Source of the DNA: an uncultured Gemmiger sp.
GTDB lineage: Bacteria; Bacillota; Clostridia; Oscillospirales; Ruminococcaceae
NCBI GenBank assembly: GCA_944386225.1
Contig: CALXAH010000020.1
Coordinates: 1-61,451, forward strand
Length of the DNA stretch: 61,451 nt
Direction of reading: 5' to 3'
Below are positions 8 to 59,689 of this stretch, piece by piece. A program made the position numbers and the translations under genes. The notes below the pieces were generated by a model, which ran no database searches, was not told where the DNA came from, and worked only from the letters and a program-made list of their open reading frames with translations. The number at the start of each line of letters is the position of its first letter. The first letter of the stretch is position 1.

Positions 8-36
8 ATATTACCACTCCACCACCCGATTGTCAA
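8..36 (-). promoter_or_regulatory. Sigma-A type promoter reading out of the window to the left
   Basis: Read on the minus strand there is TTGACA (31-36), a 17-base spacer and TAATAT (8-13). It points away from the phospholipase-like gene, toward a gene beyond the left edge that cannot be seen here. Confidence 0.55.
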
Positions 37-54794: not shown

Positions 54795-56612
54795 TTACAT
54801 ACTCTGCATCCGCTCCTGCTCAAACTGGCGGCGGTACAGATCCCGGTAATATCCCTTCCGGCGAATCAGTTCGTCGTGGGTGCCCTGCTCCACGATGGCG
54901 CCGTCCCGCACCACCAGGATCCGGTCGGCGCGGCGGATGGTGGACAGCCGGTGGGCGATCAAAAACGAGGTGCGCCCCTTGAGCAGCAGTTCGGTGGCGT
55001 CCTGGATCAGCCGTTCGGTCTTGGTATCGATGGAGCTGGTGGCCTCGTCCAGCACAAAGATGCGGGGATCGGCCAGCACGGCCCGGGCAAAGCTGATCAG
55101 CTGCTTTTCCCCGGTGGACAGCCGGTCGCCGCCCTCGCCCACATCGCTCTGGTAGCCCTTTTCCAGCTTCATGGCCACCACGTCGGCGGACACCGCCCGG
55201 GCCGCCGCCATGACCTCCTCGTCGGTGGCGTCCAGGCGGCCGTAGCGGATGTTCTCCATCACGGTTCCGCTGAACAGATGGGGGCTTTGCAGCACATAGC
55301 CGATATGGCTGTGCAGCCACAGCTGGCTGCGTTCCCGGTAATCCCGCCCGTCGATCAGCACCTGCCCGGCGGTGGGCTCAAAGAAGCGGCAGGCCAGGTT
55401 GACCAGGGTGCTCTTGCCCGCGCCGGTCTCGCCCACGATGGCGATGGTGGACCCGGCGGGGATCTTCAGGTTGAAATGGCTCAGCACGTCCTCGTTGCCG
55501 TCCGGGTACCGGAAGGACACATCCCGGAACTCGATGTCGCCCCGGATGGGCTCCCAGTTTTCCCGTTTGGGGGCAAAGACGGTGCCGTATTTTTCCACCA
55601 CCTCGGGGGTATCGGTGATGAGCGGCTGCTGTTCCAGCAGGCCCATCACCCGCTCGATGTTCGCCTGCAGGGACAGGATGTCCGCGATGTTGCGGGCGAT
55701 CTGCTGAATCGGCTCGAAGATGCCCACCGCGTAGGAGGTAAAGGCCGACAGGGTGCCGATCAGCAGCAGGCCGTCCAGCGCCAGGGCGCCGCCCCGGGCC
55801 AGCACGATGGCGGTGGTCAGGGAGCTGAAGAACATCACCAGCGGGATGTACACGGCGGACAGCCTCGCCGCCCGCACCGAGGACAGCCGCATATCCTGGC
55901 TGACCGCCTCAAATTCCCGGCTGTTCTGCTCCTCGATAACCAGGGTCTTGGAGGTGCGCGCCCCCATGATGCCCTCGTTGTAGGCGCTGGTAATGCGGGA
56001 ATGCATCTTGCGCACCCGGCGGTTCCAGCGCAGGATCTTGTCCTGGAACCAGGCGGTGAGCAGCGAGATGACCGGCACGATCAGGATGACCGCCGCCGCC
56101 AGCCCGGGGTTGAGCAGGAACATCATCACGAACACCCCCAGCACATAGAACAGCGCCCACAGGATATCGATGGAGTTCCAGGCGATCATGCCGGCGATCC
56201 GGTTGGTGTCGCTCATGATGCGGCTGAGCAGATACCCCACCGGCGTGACGTTGTAATAGGACAGGGACAGGGTTTGCAGATGCACAAAGCAGGCCCGCTT
56301 CATGTCCCGGCCGATCTGCATTTCGATGCGTATGCTGCGCCGGGTAAACAGGATGACCGCCAGCGCCTGCACCCCGATCACCGCGCCGTAGAACAGCGCG
56401 AACCAGGGCAGCCCGGCGGTGTCCCCCGTTTCGATGAATTCGTCGATGGCGTACCGCTGGAACAGCGGCAGCGCGATATCCACAATCGCCACCAGCAGGT
56501 TCAGGGCGATCACCACCCCGATCAGCCCCCGGTAGGGCTTCAGAAAAGGCAGCAGCTTTTTCCAGGAACGGATATCAAAGGATTTTGTGTATTCCTGTTC
56601 ATCAAACCCCAT
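54795..56612 (-). CDS. Heterodimeric ABC exporter subunit 2 (multidrug type)
   Basis: A 605-residue half-transporter: six membrane segments in residues 30-320, then an ATPase domain. Walker A VGETGAGKSTLVNLACR near 403-419, signature LSTGEKQLISFARAVL near 509-524, Walker B IFVLDEATSSID near 529-540 and H-loop IAHRLS near 562. The catalytic Glu after Walker B is present, so this is the likely active site with the partner. It starts inside the end of the upstream subunit gene, overlapping by 11 bases behind AAGGAGG. Confidence 0.92.
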   Translation of the reverse strand: MGFDEQEYTKSFDIRSWKKLLPFLKPYRGLIGVVIALNLLVAIVDIALPLFQRYAIDEFIETGDTAGLPWFALFYGAVIGVQALAVILFTRRSIRIEMQIGRDMKRACFVHLQTLSLSYYNVTPVGYLLSRIMSDTNRIAGMIAWNSIDILWALFYVLGVFVMMFLLNPGLAAAVILIVPVISLLTAWFQDKILRWNRRVRKMHSRITSAYNEGIMGARTSKTLVIEEQNSREFEAVSQDMRLSSVRAARLSAVYIPLVMFFSSLTTAIVLARGGALALDGLLLIGTLSAFTSYAVGIFEPIQQIARNIADILSLQANIERVMGLLEQQPLITDTPEVVEKYGTVFAPKRENWEPIRGDIEFRDVSFRYPDGNEDVLSHFNLKIPAGSTIAIVGETGAGKSTLVNLACRFFEPTAGQVLIDGRDYRERSQLWLHSHIGYVLQSPHLFSGTVMENIRYGRLDATDEEVMAAARAVSADVVAMKLEKGYQSDVGEGGDRLSTGEKQLISFARAVLADPRIFVLDEATSSIDTKTERLIQDATELLLKGRTSFLIAHRLSTIRRADRILVVRDGAIVEQGTHDELIRRKGYYRDLYRRQFEQERMQSM

Positions 56613-58431
56613 GGGTCTCGCCTCCTTCCTCACCGAACAGCAGATCCCGGTCCTCCCCGGTCATCTGCAGGTCGTAGATTTCCCGGTACAGGCCCTGGCG
56701 CGCCATCAGTTCCTCGTGGCTGCCGATCTCGGCTACCCGGCCGTCCTGCAGCACCAGGATGCAGTCCGCCTGCATCAGGGTGGTGATACGGTGGGAGATC
56801 AGCACCACCGTGGCCGCCCCCTTCGCTTTGTGCAGCGAATCGCGGATCTGCGCGTCGGTCTCCGCGTCCACGGCGGAGAGGGAGTCGTCAAAGATCAGGA
56901 TGGGCGCGTCCTGCATCAGGGTGCGGGCGATGGCCACCCGCTGTTTCTGCCCGCCGGACAGGGTCACACCCCGCTCGCCCACGATGGTGTCGTAGCCGTC
57001 GGCAAATTCCCGGATGGCCTCGTCCACATGGGCCGTGCCCGCGTGGCGGCGCACCTCCTCCAGCGGTGCGCCCGGGCGCACCGCGGCGATGTTTTCCCGG
57101 ATGCTGCGGGAGAACAAGAACGGCTCCTGCAATACGATGCCGATGTTCCGCCGCAGCCAGGGGCGGCGGATGCGGGTGATGTCCACCCCGCCGATGGTGA
57201 TGCGCCCGCTGTCCGGCGGCAGGTCGTAGAGCCGGTCCAGCAGATGCATCAGGGTGGACTTGCCGCTGCCGGTGGCCCCCAGCACCGCAAAGGTCTTGCC
57301 GGCGGGGATGGTGAAGCTCACGTCCCGCAGCACCGGCTGTTCGCCGTAGGCAAAGGAGACGTGGTCAAACACAATATCCTTGTCCAGGGGCGGGGTCTCG
57401 GCGTCGGCAGGGTCGGATTCCGGCTCGGAGTCCAGGATGTAGGCCAGCCGCTCGATGGAAACGCCCGCCTTGCTCATCTCGGACAGAATGCGTCCCAGTC
57501 CGCGCACCGGCCAGATCAGCGACTGGTTGTAGGACACAAAGGCCAAAAACTCGCCCAGAGTGATGGCCCCGTCCACCGTCTGCAGTACGCCCACCGAAAT
57601 CACGGTCAGGATCTGCAGGCCGGTGATCAGGTCACCCACACCCCAGTAGGCGCTGAGCAGCCGCCCCAGCCGGATCCACAGGGCGGAAAACCGCTCGTTC
57701 TTCTGATCGAACCGCTGTACCTCAAAGGCCTCCCGGCCAAAGGCCCGCACCACCCGCACACCGGTCAGGTTCTCCTGCACCGTGGCGGACAGCTCGCCCT
57801 CGGCCTCGTCCGCAATCAGGAACCGCCGGGCAATGCGGGAGTAGAAAAAGACGGAGTACAGCAGGATAACCGGCAGAAAGCACAGGGCAATCAGGGTCAT
57901 GCGCAGGTTCATGGACAGCATCACCGCCAGCGAGAAGCCCACCAGAAACACAATGCGGCAAACCTCCAGCAGCTGGTTGGTGACGAAGTTGCGCACCACC
58001 TCCACGTCGGAGGTGCAGCGCTGGATGATCTCGCCGGTGCTGTTGCGCACGTGCCAGGCGTAAGGCAGCCGCTGGATGTGGCTGTACAGCGCGTCCCGCA
58101 GCGATTTGACAAAGTTCTCCGAGGCGTTGGCGGTACCCATGCGGCTGCCGTAGGTGCACAGACCGGACAGCACCGCCACCGCCAGCAGAAAGCCCGCCGC
58201 CGCCAGCAGCTGGGTCAGGGGTTCGGCCCCCAGCAGCGCCTCCGGCGCCAGCGCGGTGACTATCTTCGGAAAGGGTTCCCCGCCCAGGATGGAGTCCACC
58301 GCCACCCGCACCACCTGCGGCGTAAGCGACGAGAACACCGTATTCCCCATGGAGAACACCAGCGTAAGCGCAAAGATCCAGAGATACGGCCGCACAAACC
58401 GCCAGATCAGCGCTCGTTTTGACTGTTTCAA
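56602..58431 (-). CDS. Heterodimeric ABC exporter subunit 1 (multidrug type)
   Basis: A 609-residue half-transporter with six membrane segments (residues 15-320) and an ATPase. Walker A VLGATGSGKSTLMHLLDR near 384-401, signature LSGGQKQRVAIARTL near 490-504, Walker B ILIFDDSLSAVD near 510-521. Here the residue after the Walker B Asp is Asp instead of catalytic Glu (FDDS), as in the degenerate site of heterodimers such as BmrC. TTG start at 58431 is set by AAAGGAGGG six bases upstream. Preceded by a leader peptide and two terminators, as in attenuated drug-exporter operons. Confidence 0.92.
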   Translation of the reverse strand: MKQSKRALIWRFVRPYLWIFALTLVFSMGNTVFSSLTPQVVRVAVDSILGGEPFPKIVTALAPEALLGAEPLTQLLAAAGFLLAVAVLSGLCTYGSRMGTANASENFVKSLRDALYSHIQRLPYAWHVRNSTGEIIQRCTSDVEVVRNFVTNQLLEVCRIVFLVGFSLAVMLSMNLRMTLIALCFLPVILLYSVFFYSRIARRFLIADEAEGELSATVQENLTGVRVVRAFGREAFEVQRFDQKNERFSALWIRLGRLLSAYWGVGDLITGLQILTVISVGVLQTVDGAITLGEFLAFVSYNQSLIWPVRGLGRILSEMSKAGVSIERLAYILDSEPESDPADAETPPLDKDIVFDHVSFAYGEQPVLRDVSFTIPAGKTFAVLGATGSGKSTLMHLLDRLYDLPPDSGRITIGGVDITRIRRPWLRRNIGIVLQEPFLFSRSIRENIAAVRPGAPLEEVRRHAGTAHVDEAIREFADGYDTIVGERGVTLSGGQKQRVAIARTLMQDAPILIFDDSLSAVDAETDAQIRDSLHKAKGAATVVLISHRITTLMQADCILVLQDGRVAEIGSHEELMARQGLYREIYDLQMTGEDRDLLFGEEGGETHGV

Positions 58432-58454
58432 GCAATTCCCTCCTTTAACCAAAC

Positions 58455-58487
58455 AAAAAACGCCCCCGGCACAAAGCCGGGGGGCGT
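58455..58487 (-). terminator. Second leader terminator before the ABC exporter
   Basis: On the minus strand CGCCCCCCGGC / GCCGGGGGCG followed by TTTTTTG, 23 bases ahead of the TTG start. Confidence 0.75.
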
Positions 58488-58500
58488 GAAATGGCCGCAC

Positions 58501-58527
58501 AAAAAACCTGCCGGTTACACCGGGCAG
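58501..58527 (-). terminator. First leader terminator, overlapping the leader peptide stop
   Basis: On the minus strand CTGCCCGGTGTAACCGGCAG forms a stem with one bulged C, followed by GTTTTTT. The leader peptide stop TAA is in the loop and right arm, so a ribosome finishing the leader covers this stem. Confidence 0.7.
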
Positions 58528-58598
58528 GGCGGGAGTGCGGACAAGGTTTCCCAACGGCTTGACATTCTTTCCCGATCGTTGTACCGCATATTGGTCAT
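58515..58598 (-). CDS. Leader peptide of the ABC exporter operon
   Basis: A 27-codon ORF: AAAGGAGG, eight bases, ATG, then a short peptide ending SALPPCPV. It has a far better ribosome binding site than needed for a chance ORF and ends within the terminator stem. Pro-Pro and Pro near the end can slow ribosomes. The order promoter, peptide, terminator 1, terminator 2, ABC exporter matches the layout of bmrBCD in Bacillus subtilis, though the peptide sequence is unrelated. Translation is inferred. Confidence 0.7.
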   Translation of the reverse strand: MTNMRYNDRERMSSRWETLSALPPCPV

Positions 58599-58648
58599 AC
58601 TGTCCGCCTCCTTTCCGATTGGCATATTGCCTGTATACTGCAAGGTTC

Positions 58649-58677
58649 ACTATACCTTGTCCGGTTCCGCTTGTCAA
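58649..58677 (-). promoter_or_regulatory. Promoter of the leader peptide-ABC exporter operon
   Basis: Minus strand TTGACA (58672-58677), 17 bases, TATAGT (58649-58654). The start of transcription would be near 58642, giving a 43-base leader before the short peptide. Confidence 0.75.
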
Positions 58678-58771: not shown

Positions 58772-59284
58772 CTACAGTCTGATCCTGGCCAGCAGGCGGC
58801 GTTTCGCCGCCCGGATCGCCGCCGCCCGGCGGCCGGTAAAGACCGCGCCCAGCGCCAGCATCCCAAAAGCAAGCCCCAGCCCGAAATCCGCGATCTGCCC
58901 GCAGGGGACGGTGTTTTCCAGCCCCAGCGCCCCGATGGCCAGGGAGGCGGCAAACCCCGCCAGCCCGATCAGGAACAGCCCATGCATCCGCGCCAGCAGC
59001 CGCCCTTTTTCCTCGCGGCTGTATTCCGCTGCCGCCAGTAGGTTTTCTTTTTCTTCCGGTTTCATGGGTGCCTCCTTCCGCTGCCCGTTCAGCAGTTCCC
59101 GTATCTCCACGTCGTAGTAATCCGCCAGTGCCACCAGCACCGCCAGATCCGGCAGGTTGTTCCCGTTTTCCCAGCGGGACACGGTTCTGCCGGTCACACC
59201 GAACTGTTCCGCCAGCTGTTCCTGTGTCAGCGCCCGTTCTTTCCGCAGCGTTTTCAGAAACGCCCCGATCCTCTGCTGATCCAT
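58772..59284 (-). CDS. XRE-family regulator with C-terminal membrane segments
   Basis: A 170-residue protein. Residues 5-60 are a Cro/CI helix-turn-helix (LKTLRKERALTQEQLAEQFG and VTGRTVSRWENGNNLPDL). After a charged linker, two hydrophobic segments (about 105-125 and 131-148) make a membrane-anchored regulator, as in the XRE group of Firmicutes. The start is set by AAAGGAGG at 59284; the longer frame from 59473 is rejected. It lies upstream of the exporter promoter on the same strand, with a TATACT promoter at 59307-59335. It may sense the membrane and could influence the exporter; this is inference. Confidence 0.85.
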   Translation of the reverse strand: MDQQRIGAFLKTLRKERALTQEQLAEQFGVTGRTVSRWENGNNLPDLAVLVALADYYDVEIRELLNGQRKEAPMKPEEKENLLAAAEYSREEKGRLLARMHGLFLIGLAGFAASLAIGALGLENTVPCGQIADFGLGLAFGMLALGAVFTGRRAAAIRAAKRRLLARIRL

Positions 59285-59335: not shown

Positions 59336-59453
59336 GGACACAAAGCGGGAATTGCCGGCCGGACATTCCATGTCCCCCTTCTTTCCGGCAGAAAGCCCCT
59401 GCCCAGCGGCCGCAATGGAACGTTGCGTGACAAATGCGCACACCGGTGCTACT

Positions 59454-59689
59454 GTGATTTCCCCAGTGAACACTGGACCCGCATCCGTACCAACAATGTC
59501 ATTGAAAGACTAAACCGGGAAATCCGACGCCGAACCCGTGTGGTGGGCAGCTTCCCGGACGGCAACTCTGCTCTGATGTTGGTCTGCGCGCGGCTACGCC
59601 ACGTGTCCAGTACCCAGTGGGGCAACAAAAAGTACATGAATATGAAGCACCTGGAGGCGGCCATTGAGGATGCCTCCATTGTTGGATGA
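59454..59689 (+). pseudogene. IS256-type transposase remnant (C-terminal part)
   Basis: The frame encodes FPSEHWTRIRTNNVIERLNR and GSFPDGNSALMLVCARLRHV, the end of a Mutator/IS256 transposase (normally about 400 residues), ending with a stop at 59687-59689. The front two thirds including most DDE catalytic residues are absent. Homology begins near 59454; the preceding 12 codons of the open frame do not fit. Sequence after the stop, up to about 59740 (ending CTTGACACTACC), probably contains the right terminal inverted repeat. Confidence 0.8.

Follow-up and report, generated by a model that had tools for sequence, protein, structure and literature searches.

The closest described relatives of the element reported here are leaders that combine a short open reading frame (ORF) with alternative RNA structures, a logic backed by experiment for bmrB (PMC4191407), hflXr (PMC6310831) and cplR (PMC10201436). 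In Bacillus subtilis, the bmrB leader of bmrCD is a translated ORF of 53 codons with a GTG start that carries a predicted terminator, antiterminator and anti-antiterminator, all three inside the coding sequence (nt 60-162), ahead of a heterodimeric ABC exporter, and induction by lincomycin requires its translation (PMC4191407). In the rli80-hflXr leader of Listeria monocytogenes, a small ORF of 14 codons containing RLR overlaps the anti-antiterminator and is followed by the antiterminator and the terminator (PMC6310831), while the predicted uORFC-6-1 motif, located before hflX mainly in Bacillales, has an RLR ORF and a structure lying wholly downstream of the start codon (PMC8632094). In the cplR leader of Clostridioides difficile, the small ORF is sequestered by a 5′ hairpin, a terminator alternates with an anti-terminator, and changing the start codon abolishes reporter expression (PMC10201436). 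Here we describe, in a 61-kb stretch of DNA from an uncultured Gemmiger sp. (contig CALXAH010000020.1, 61,451 nt; hereafter the window), a leader that comparative analysis identifies as a very probable ribosome-mediated transcription attenuator controlling a heterodimeric ABC multidrug-type exporter.

A sequence-only reading of this locus had named a consensus promoter, a Shine-Dalgarno (SD) sequence, a 27-codon ORF, a hairpin over its stop codon, a terminator and an exporter pair, all of which are present on the minus strand. It had overlooked the SD/start region, which forms the first regulatory element, the complementarity of an ORF segment to the terminator, and the leaders of the same build that stand before other genes. 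The parts, numbered on the window, are as follows.

58649-58677, minus strand: promoter, with −35 TTGACA (58677-58672), a 17-nt spacer and −10 TATAGT (58654-58649); consensus scan.
58607-58614, minus strand: SD of the leader ORF, AAAGGAGG; read, and supported by relatives.
58600-58607, minus strand: element 1, GCGGACAG, from the SD end to just before the start codon, the putative 5′ arm of the anti-antiterminator; pairing with element 2.
58515-58598, minus strand: leader ORF MTNMRYNDRERMSSRWETLSALPPCPV, 27 codons, ATG at 58598 and TAA at 58517-58515; ORF list and relatives.
58550-58559, minus strand: putative 5′ segment of the antiterminator, AGCCGTTGGG, the complement of the 5′ arm of T; duplex tests.
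58537-58544, minus strand: element 2, TTGTCCGC, the Leu-Ser-Ala codons, partner of element 1 or of element 3; alignment and pairing.
58507-58528, minus strand: hairpin H1, CCTGCCCGG-TGTAA-CCGGCAGG, which holds the ORF stop and is followed by T6 at 58506-58501; read, and supported by relatives.
58495-58500, minus strand: element 3, GTGCGG, complement of CCGCAC at element 2; helix 2, 84.4% of cells paired.
58455-58486, minus strand: intrinsic terminator T, hairpin at 58486-58461 and T6 at 58460-58455; terminator scan and relatives.
58438-58446, minus strand: SD of exporter gene 1, AAAGGAGGG; by reading.
56602-58431, minus strand: ABC exporter half-transporter 1, TTG start at 58431; Pfam ABC_membrane and ABC_tran.
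54795-56612, minus strand: ABC exporter half-transporter 2, ATG start at 56612, overlapping the end of gene 1; Pfam.

Compared with bmrB, the present leader is an ORF of 27 rather than 53 codons, starts with ATG rather than GTG and has its terminator outside the ORF, beginning 28 nt past the stop; moreover, its SD region itself is the predicted anti-antiterminator arm. It resembles rli80-hflXr and uORFC-6-1 in that hflX is among the gene families preceded by leaders of this build, but here pairing begins in the SD, and Arg-Leu-Arg (RLR) occurs in none of the 31 leader peptides that we collected. With cplR it would share a 5′ hairpin that sequesters the small ORF and the alternation of terminator and anti-terminator, whereas cplR has a very short ORF (Met-Arg-Ile), an ABCF target and a terminator that also hides the SD of that target (PMC10201436). 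The hallmarks of these systems, namely the 53 codons of bmrB, the RLR of hflXr, the Met-Arg-Ile of cplR and the structure downstream of the start in uORFC-6-1, are all absent. The earlier suggestion of an independent case of the bmrBCD principle nevertheless appears sound, as ORF, SD, alternative pairings and terminator are conserved in a leader that is not that of bmrB.

Scanning named genomes yielded 46 loci, 14 of which encode a subunit 1 with 82-96% identity and, together with the window, make up 15 exporter leaders; the nearest named relative, Gemmiger sp. An120, has a subunit 1 that is 96% identical. The 14 records come from Gemmiger, Fournierella, Ruthenibacterium, Anaeromassilibacillus, Caccousia and uncultured Oscillospiraceae, and many of them are metagenome bins; one, L039, is labelled Bacteroides, probably through a binning error. 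The promoter-like site, SD, ORF, H1, T and exporter follow one another in the same order in all 15, and the ORF and hairpins that the sequence-only reading proposed to look for in related genomes were kept in each. All 15 share a TTGAC[AT]-16..18-[TG]A[TC]A[ACGT]T match 5′ of the ORF, the start type GAAAGGAGGCGG[A/G]CAGNATG, an ATG-initiated ORF of 23-30 codons ending near H1, and T with a trailing T-run of 4-7. Since all 15 close orthologues found keep it, the layout goes beyond chance. A covariance model, R2, also finds the leader in 15/15 exporter loci, although six of the 14 sequences on which it was built come from these same leaders. Upstream of exporter homologues at 45-66% identity R2 had no match (0/27), and its single 21.5-bit match in L093 was not upstream of the gene. 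One homologue with 66% identity (L046) is preceded by a different ORF (MRNQKVSGIRVFASALCVL...) with an SD (AAAGGAGG) and by a hairpin resembling a terminator; this may be a further attenuator that arose independently.

Within the window, the promoter matches the consensus at 11 of 12 positions and is the sole promoter-like site between 57900 and 59200 (0.2 expected). A relaxed SD-start pattern (at most one mismatch) occurs once in the whole window, with 0.06 occurrences expected. A terminator scan of the same 1.3 kb on both strands returned five sites against 1.4 expected; three of these correspond to H1 and T (one counted twice) and two lie elsewhere. The 214-nt leader folds with a z-score of −2.3, and 3 of 200 shuffles were equally good.

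The conserved pairings define two alternative states. Element 1, located in the SD-AUG interval, is complementary to element 2 (CUGUCCGC), which lies about ten codons before the stop; the alternative partner of element 2 is element 3 (GUGCGG, 3′ of H1), and the ORF segment preceding element 2 (GAGCCGnnGGG in many leaders) is complementary to the 5′ arm of T (CCC/U-CCGGCUU). Because these segments are shared, an OFF state (elements 1 and 2 paired, T formed) excludes an ON state in which the ORF segment pairs with the terminator arm and element 2 with element 3, with H1 nested between. Across the 15 aligned leaders, the OFF structure was paired in 95.6% of 360 cells (slid controls, 39-46%), with 96.7% in the helix of elements 1 and 2, and contained six pairs changed on both sides against a shuffled mean of 2.3, a count reached by 2 of 500 shuffles. 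The ON structure was paired in 83.0% of 300 cells (slid controls, 31-48%; 1 of 500 shuffles as high). In L045, both of its arms change jointly (terminator arm GUCCCCGGC, ORF GCCGAUGGGAU). In the helix of elements 1 and 2, one position each in L032 and L035 and two positions in L045 fail to form a standard pair, a sign of tolerance or drift. By eye, the SD (GGAGGCG) was also considered as a candidate antiterminator that would pair directly with the terminator arm.

The H1 stem is likewise kept (91.1% of cells paired in relatives, with compensatory changes). The sequence-only reading had proposed two terminators, and in the window both hairpins are indeed followed by T6; among relatives this does not hold for H1, after which a U-run of at least five is found only in the window (6) and L034 (5), the other 13 leaders having 1-4 T. 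The idea that H1 works as a first terminator throughout the clade was therefore rejected, such a run being present in only 2 of 15 leaders. A second control point at the second terminator, also proposed, finds no support either: the H1 stem is kept, its U-tract is not, and H1 is nested in the proposed antiterminator.

The ORF, the pairings and the association with the exporter gene are evident from comparative sequence, and from them we infer termination in vivo, translation of the leader, an inducing drug and a stall position as follows. In unstressed cells, the leader ORF would be translated to its stop and cleared, so that elements 1 and 2 pair, T forms and RNA polymerase halts before the exporter. 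An untranslated leader would behave likewise, and the default would be OFF because the helix of elements 1 and 2 is expected to form even without leader translation. A ribosome slowed or held on the first codons, most likely by a ribosome-targeting antibiotic, would cover element 1. The stretch of the ORF that includes element 2 and the bases preceding it could then pair with element 3 and the 5′ arm of T, with H1 nested, and this ON pairing would block T and allow transcription of the exporter.

Leaders of the same build also precede other genes. R1, a model of the exporter leader, was run on 396 genomes of the family (family samples were drawn from a larger group) and matched 20, giving nine exporter leaders that scored 92-141 bits, plus 13 weak rows; when all 13 were read by hand, seven proved to be leaders before other genes and six did not. 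A 20-mer pattern of the start region had 12 exact matches in the same 396 genomes, all 12 in leaders (control reading, 0). In a sample of 394 genomes from the order it had six matches, comprising three known leaders and three ordinary genes (L136-L138; control, 1), the latter being its new matches outside the family. The broader R2, run on 347 genomes at E≤0.05, matched 109. A reading of 32 of its matches (12 loci and 20 further regions, leaving aside L163, L166 and the remaining weak rows) identified eight leaders (L154-L158, L174, L176 and L186) and 24 non-leaders, six of which were the SD of a ribosomal-protein (S10) operon, that of the window's own genome included.

The collection totals 31 leaders, of which 15 precede the exporter. 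The remaining 16, with the gene family assigned by Pfam and the terminator identified by hand reading, are the following.

GNAT acetyltransferase, seven leaders: L113, L154-L158, L174.
HflX, four leaders: L114, L121, L176, L186.
RtcB, three leaders: L111, L119, L132.
Another ABC transporter, two leaders: L112, L123.

In three genomes (G005, G251 and G329) two different genes are each preceded by such a leader. The helix of elements 1 and 2 beat shuffles at p≤0.05 in 22 of the 31 and co-varies between families, reading GGACA:UGUCC, GGGCAG:CUGCCC (L112) or GGAUA:UAUCC (RtcB leaders L119 and L132). R2 had no confident match in the best 30 HflX loci (of 123 genomes matched) and 30 RtcB loci (of 36), only three weak rows in two loci; leaders of this build, before HflX and RtcB as before GNAT and the other ABC transporter, are therefore sporadic in the family. 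One of these weak matches (L228:2740-2980, minus strand, 18.5 bits), outside the count of 31, has a promoter, an ORF (MFKNQFYHQ...), a GGCGG/CCGCC complement and a terminator before RtcB, and is probably a divergent RtcB leader.

Because the leaders differ in their ORFs and terminators, the ON pairing can be tested across families. In RtcB leaders AAACGG pairs with CCGUUU; in the GNAT leader L113, GAUAAAACC pairs with GGUUUUAUC, and in L158, UGAUGAAACCAAA with UUUUGGUCUCAUC with one internal mismatch; in the HflX leader L114, CAGGAGU pairs with ACUUCUG. For 18 leaders chosen from the 31, each ORF was paired with the terminator arm of its own leader and with the arms found in the other families, and row and column means were removed. 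The own-terminator residual was negative in 18/18 (−2.9 to −10.7 kcal/mol), compared with a standard deviation of 1.9 for the 248 cross-family cells. With one leader per family, the true assignment of ORFs to terminators was the best of 120 permutations in all four five-family picks. These 18 results are not independent trials, since some leaders recur among the picks and those of one family are related. The data also bear on the alternative that the leader is constitutive, its terminator plain and its small ORF and hairpins merely tuning basal read-through: the terminator is indeed very strong, but mutually exclusive pairings kept across gene contexts make this explanation quite improbable. 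Of the features of ribosome-mediated transcription attenuators, the leaders show a conserved short ORF with SD and start, an intrinsic terminator between ORF and gene, and a mutually exclusive antiterminator overlapping the ORF, the last found in the 18 of 31 leaders tested and more weakly in exporter leaders alone.

We modelled ribosome position by masking the footprint in the truncated transcript, equilibrium folding being a crude proxy for a kinetic switch. Freeing the terminator arm was costlier when the ribosome occupied codons 2-6 than when it stood at the stop in 12/15 exporter and 4/4 HflX leaders, as well as in 2/3 RtcB, 1/2 ABC and 2/7 GNAT leaders, and harder with an early ribosome than with none in 27/31. 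Without a ribosome, the arm was mostly free in the window (0.24 paired upstream) and in L033, L036, L038 and L043 (0.04-0.30).

Several observations weigh against attenuation as proposed. An early ribosome was not favoured over one at the stop in the exporter leaders L032, L037, L045, five of seven GNAT, one of three RtcB and one of two ABC leaders. In 10 of 15 exporter leaders the arm was already more than half sequestered without a ribosome (0.52-0.89), so that folding does not support a default OFF state for them. Double-sided changes in the ON structure, counted on exporter leaders alone, amounted to four pairs against 3.0 in shuffles (170 of 500 as high). An earlier duplex test with the ORF segment ending before element 2 reached p≤0.05 in only 7/31 leaders, and both the extension of that segment into element 2 and the choice of 18 leaders came after this weak result. 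The 16 non-exporter leaders also have a short ORF with SD and start, but they were selected by that feature; having been found by a start-region search, their start regions are not independent evidence. The ORF of L032 runs in another frame over its 3′ half, although its stop still lies inside H1. The GNAT leaders may be a special case: six of the seven (L154-L158 and L113) have ORFs of only 16 codons, nearly all of which overlap an RNA arm, and an ORF segment that mirrors the terminator loop and 3′ arm, so that an early ribosome may, in the model, cover the antiterminator segment too. Finally, the peptide is under little purifying selection, which weakens the reading that a specific drug is sensed.

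This last point follows from the peptides themselves. Across 12 exporter ORF pairs the synonymous share ranged from 0/1 to 6/11 (e.g. 2/4 and 10/31), with 0.23-0.27 expected without selection, suggesting that purifying selection on the peptide is at most slight. The C-termini of the exporter leaders differ (LPPCPV in the window, and LPLCPF, PMLCPV, LPCPGK, PPLCLL, CRPRLL and LPRLM elsewhere). The earlier idea that the proline-rich LPPCPV slows ribosomes fares poorly, since Pro-Pro occurs in 3/15 exporter peptides (6/31 overall) and the LPPCPV codons double as the 5′ arm of H1.

Erm leaders exemplify arrest-peptide sensing. In a comparable scheme, akin to the RLR leader of hflXr, a given drug would stall the ribosome at a motif such as LPPCPV, Ser-Arg-Arg or Leu-Ser-Ala. 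Ser-Arg-Arg/Trp does recur in exporter leaders, and Leu-Ser-Ala lies over element 2 in 19/31 peptides (13/15 exporter, 5/7 GNAT and 1/4 HflX), indicating that element 2 is often read in the same frame. The recurrent residues fall, however, on RNA pairing segments (AGCCG, CUGUCCGC, CUGCCC). At the nucleotide level, element 2 retains its UCC in 14/15 exporter leaders, the frame-shifted L032 having CCC, and the three RtcB, two other ABC and three of four HflX leaders keep element 2 without Leu-Ser-Ala. With variable C-termini, few Pro-Pro and no Arg-Leu-Arg in addition, we regard arrest-peptide sensing as unlikely, and proline or Ser-Arg-Arg arrest was rejected as a conserved signal. Because H1 and element 2 fix its late residues and it is under slight selection, the peptide seems to act mainly as a clock and not as a specific arrest peptide.

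The strong conservation of the RNA and weak conservation of the peptide could also suit a riboswitch or a protein-binding attenuator with an incidental ORF. Yet an SD, an ATG and an ORF ending near H1 are found in 15/15 exporter leaders, and gaps in the alignment from the start codon to element 2 measure 6, 9 and 12 nt, with a 1-nt gap in L032 alone. No Rfam 15 family matched the window at its gathering threshold, the best sub-threshold score in the leader being 26 bits of 112 needed. Such an attenuator is most improbable, and the ribosome-mediated switch is retained as the preferred explanation.

The presumed target is a heterodimeric ABC exporter with one degenerate site, as is the case for bmrB and bmrCD. 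In subunit 1, Asp replaces the catalytic Glu after Walker B (LIFDDS) and the signature is LSGGQ, whereas subunit 2 has the canonical Glu (FVLDEA) and a non-canonical signature, LSTGE, as read from the residues. Such an Asp/Glu pattern marks a heterodimer with one degenerate site, and BmrCD is degenerate in the same manner. The best-scoring Protein Data Bank (PDB) chains are full-length P-glycoprotein-type transporters. The best half-transporter relatives include 5mkk/6raf (presumably TmrAB), TM_0288, Sav1866 and YheI/YheH (which we take to be BmrC/BmrD), with YheI and TM_0288 among those of subunit 1 and TM_0288 and YheH among those of subunit 2; YheI and YheH score 300 and 318 bits. The exporter is thus of the multidrug type, and BmrCD is no nearer to it than several other transporters are.

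Directly upstream of the leader and co-oriented with it lies a small HTH_3 helix-turn-helix regulator (58772-59284, minus strand) with a C-terminus that is membrane-like by eye; it may contribute promoter-level control. Beyond it is a Mutator-family transposase remnant (59423-59689, plus strand; Transposase_mut, profile end only).

Judged by titles and abstract starts, none of the matches listed in a literature search, which had subscription papers and preprints outside its scope, described this class of leader or attenuation of rtcB, and neither is described in passages of PMC11109978 and PMC6429828. While the principle is known, the predicted use of the SD region as a switch arm in ribosome-mediated transcription attenuation appears to be new.

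These leaders may well represent an undescribed family of cis-acting ribosome-distress attenuators in this bacterial family, forming a translation-stress regulon without a protein regulator. They would share an SD-embedded switch arm, GGAGG(C/U)GG(A/G)(C/U)A with variants, and the regulon would take in two types of ABC transporter for drug export, HflX for ribosome splitting, RtcB for RNA repair, and GNAT acetyltransferases. The exporter leader is a concrete, testable candidate for antibiotic sensing in gut commensals, modelled base by base, and the SD-anchored element can serve as a handle when related genomes are searched for stress genes. A single constraint, an SD doubling as a switch arm, can apparently be combined with different peptides and terminators. 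The leaders before RtcB and GNAT genes have no precedent among the matches listed in the literature search, and those at HflX, RtcB and GNAT loci hint that rescue and repair factors may be turned on directly, in cis, by stalled ribosomes.

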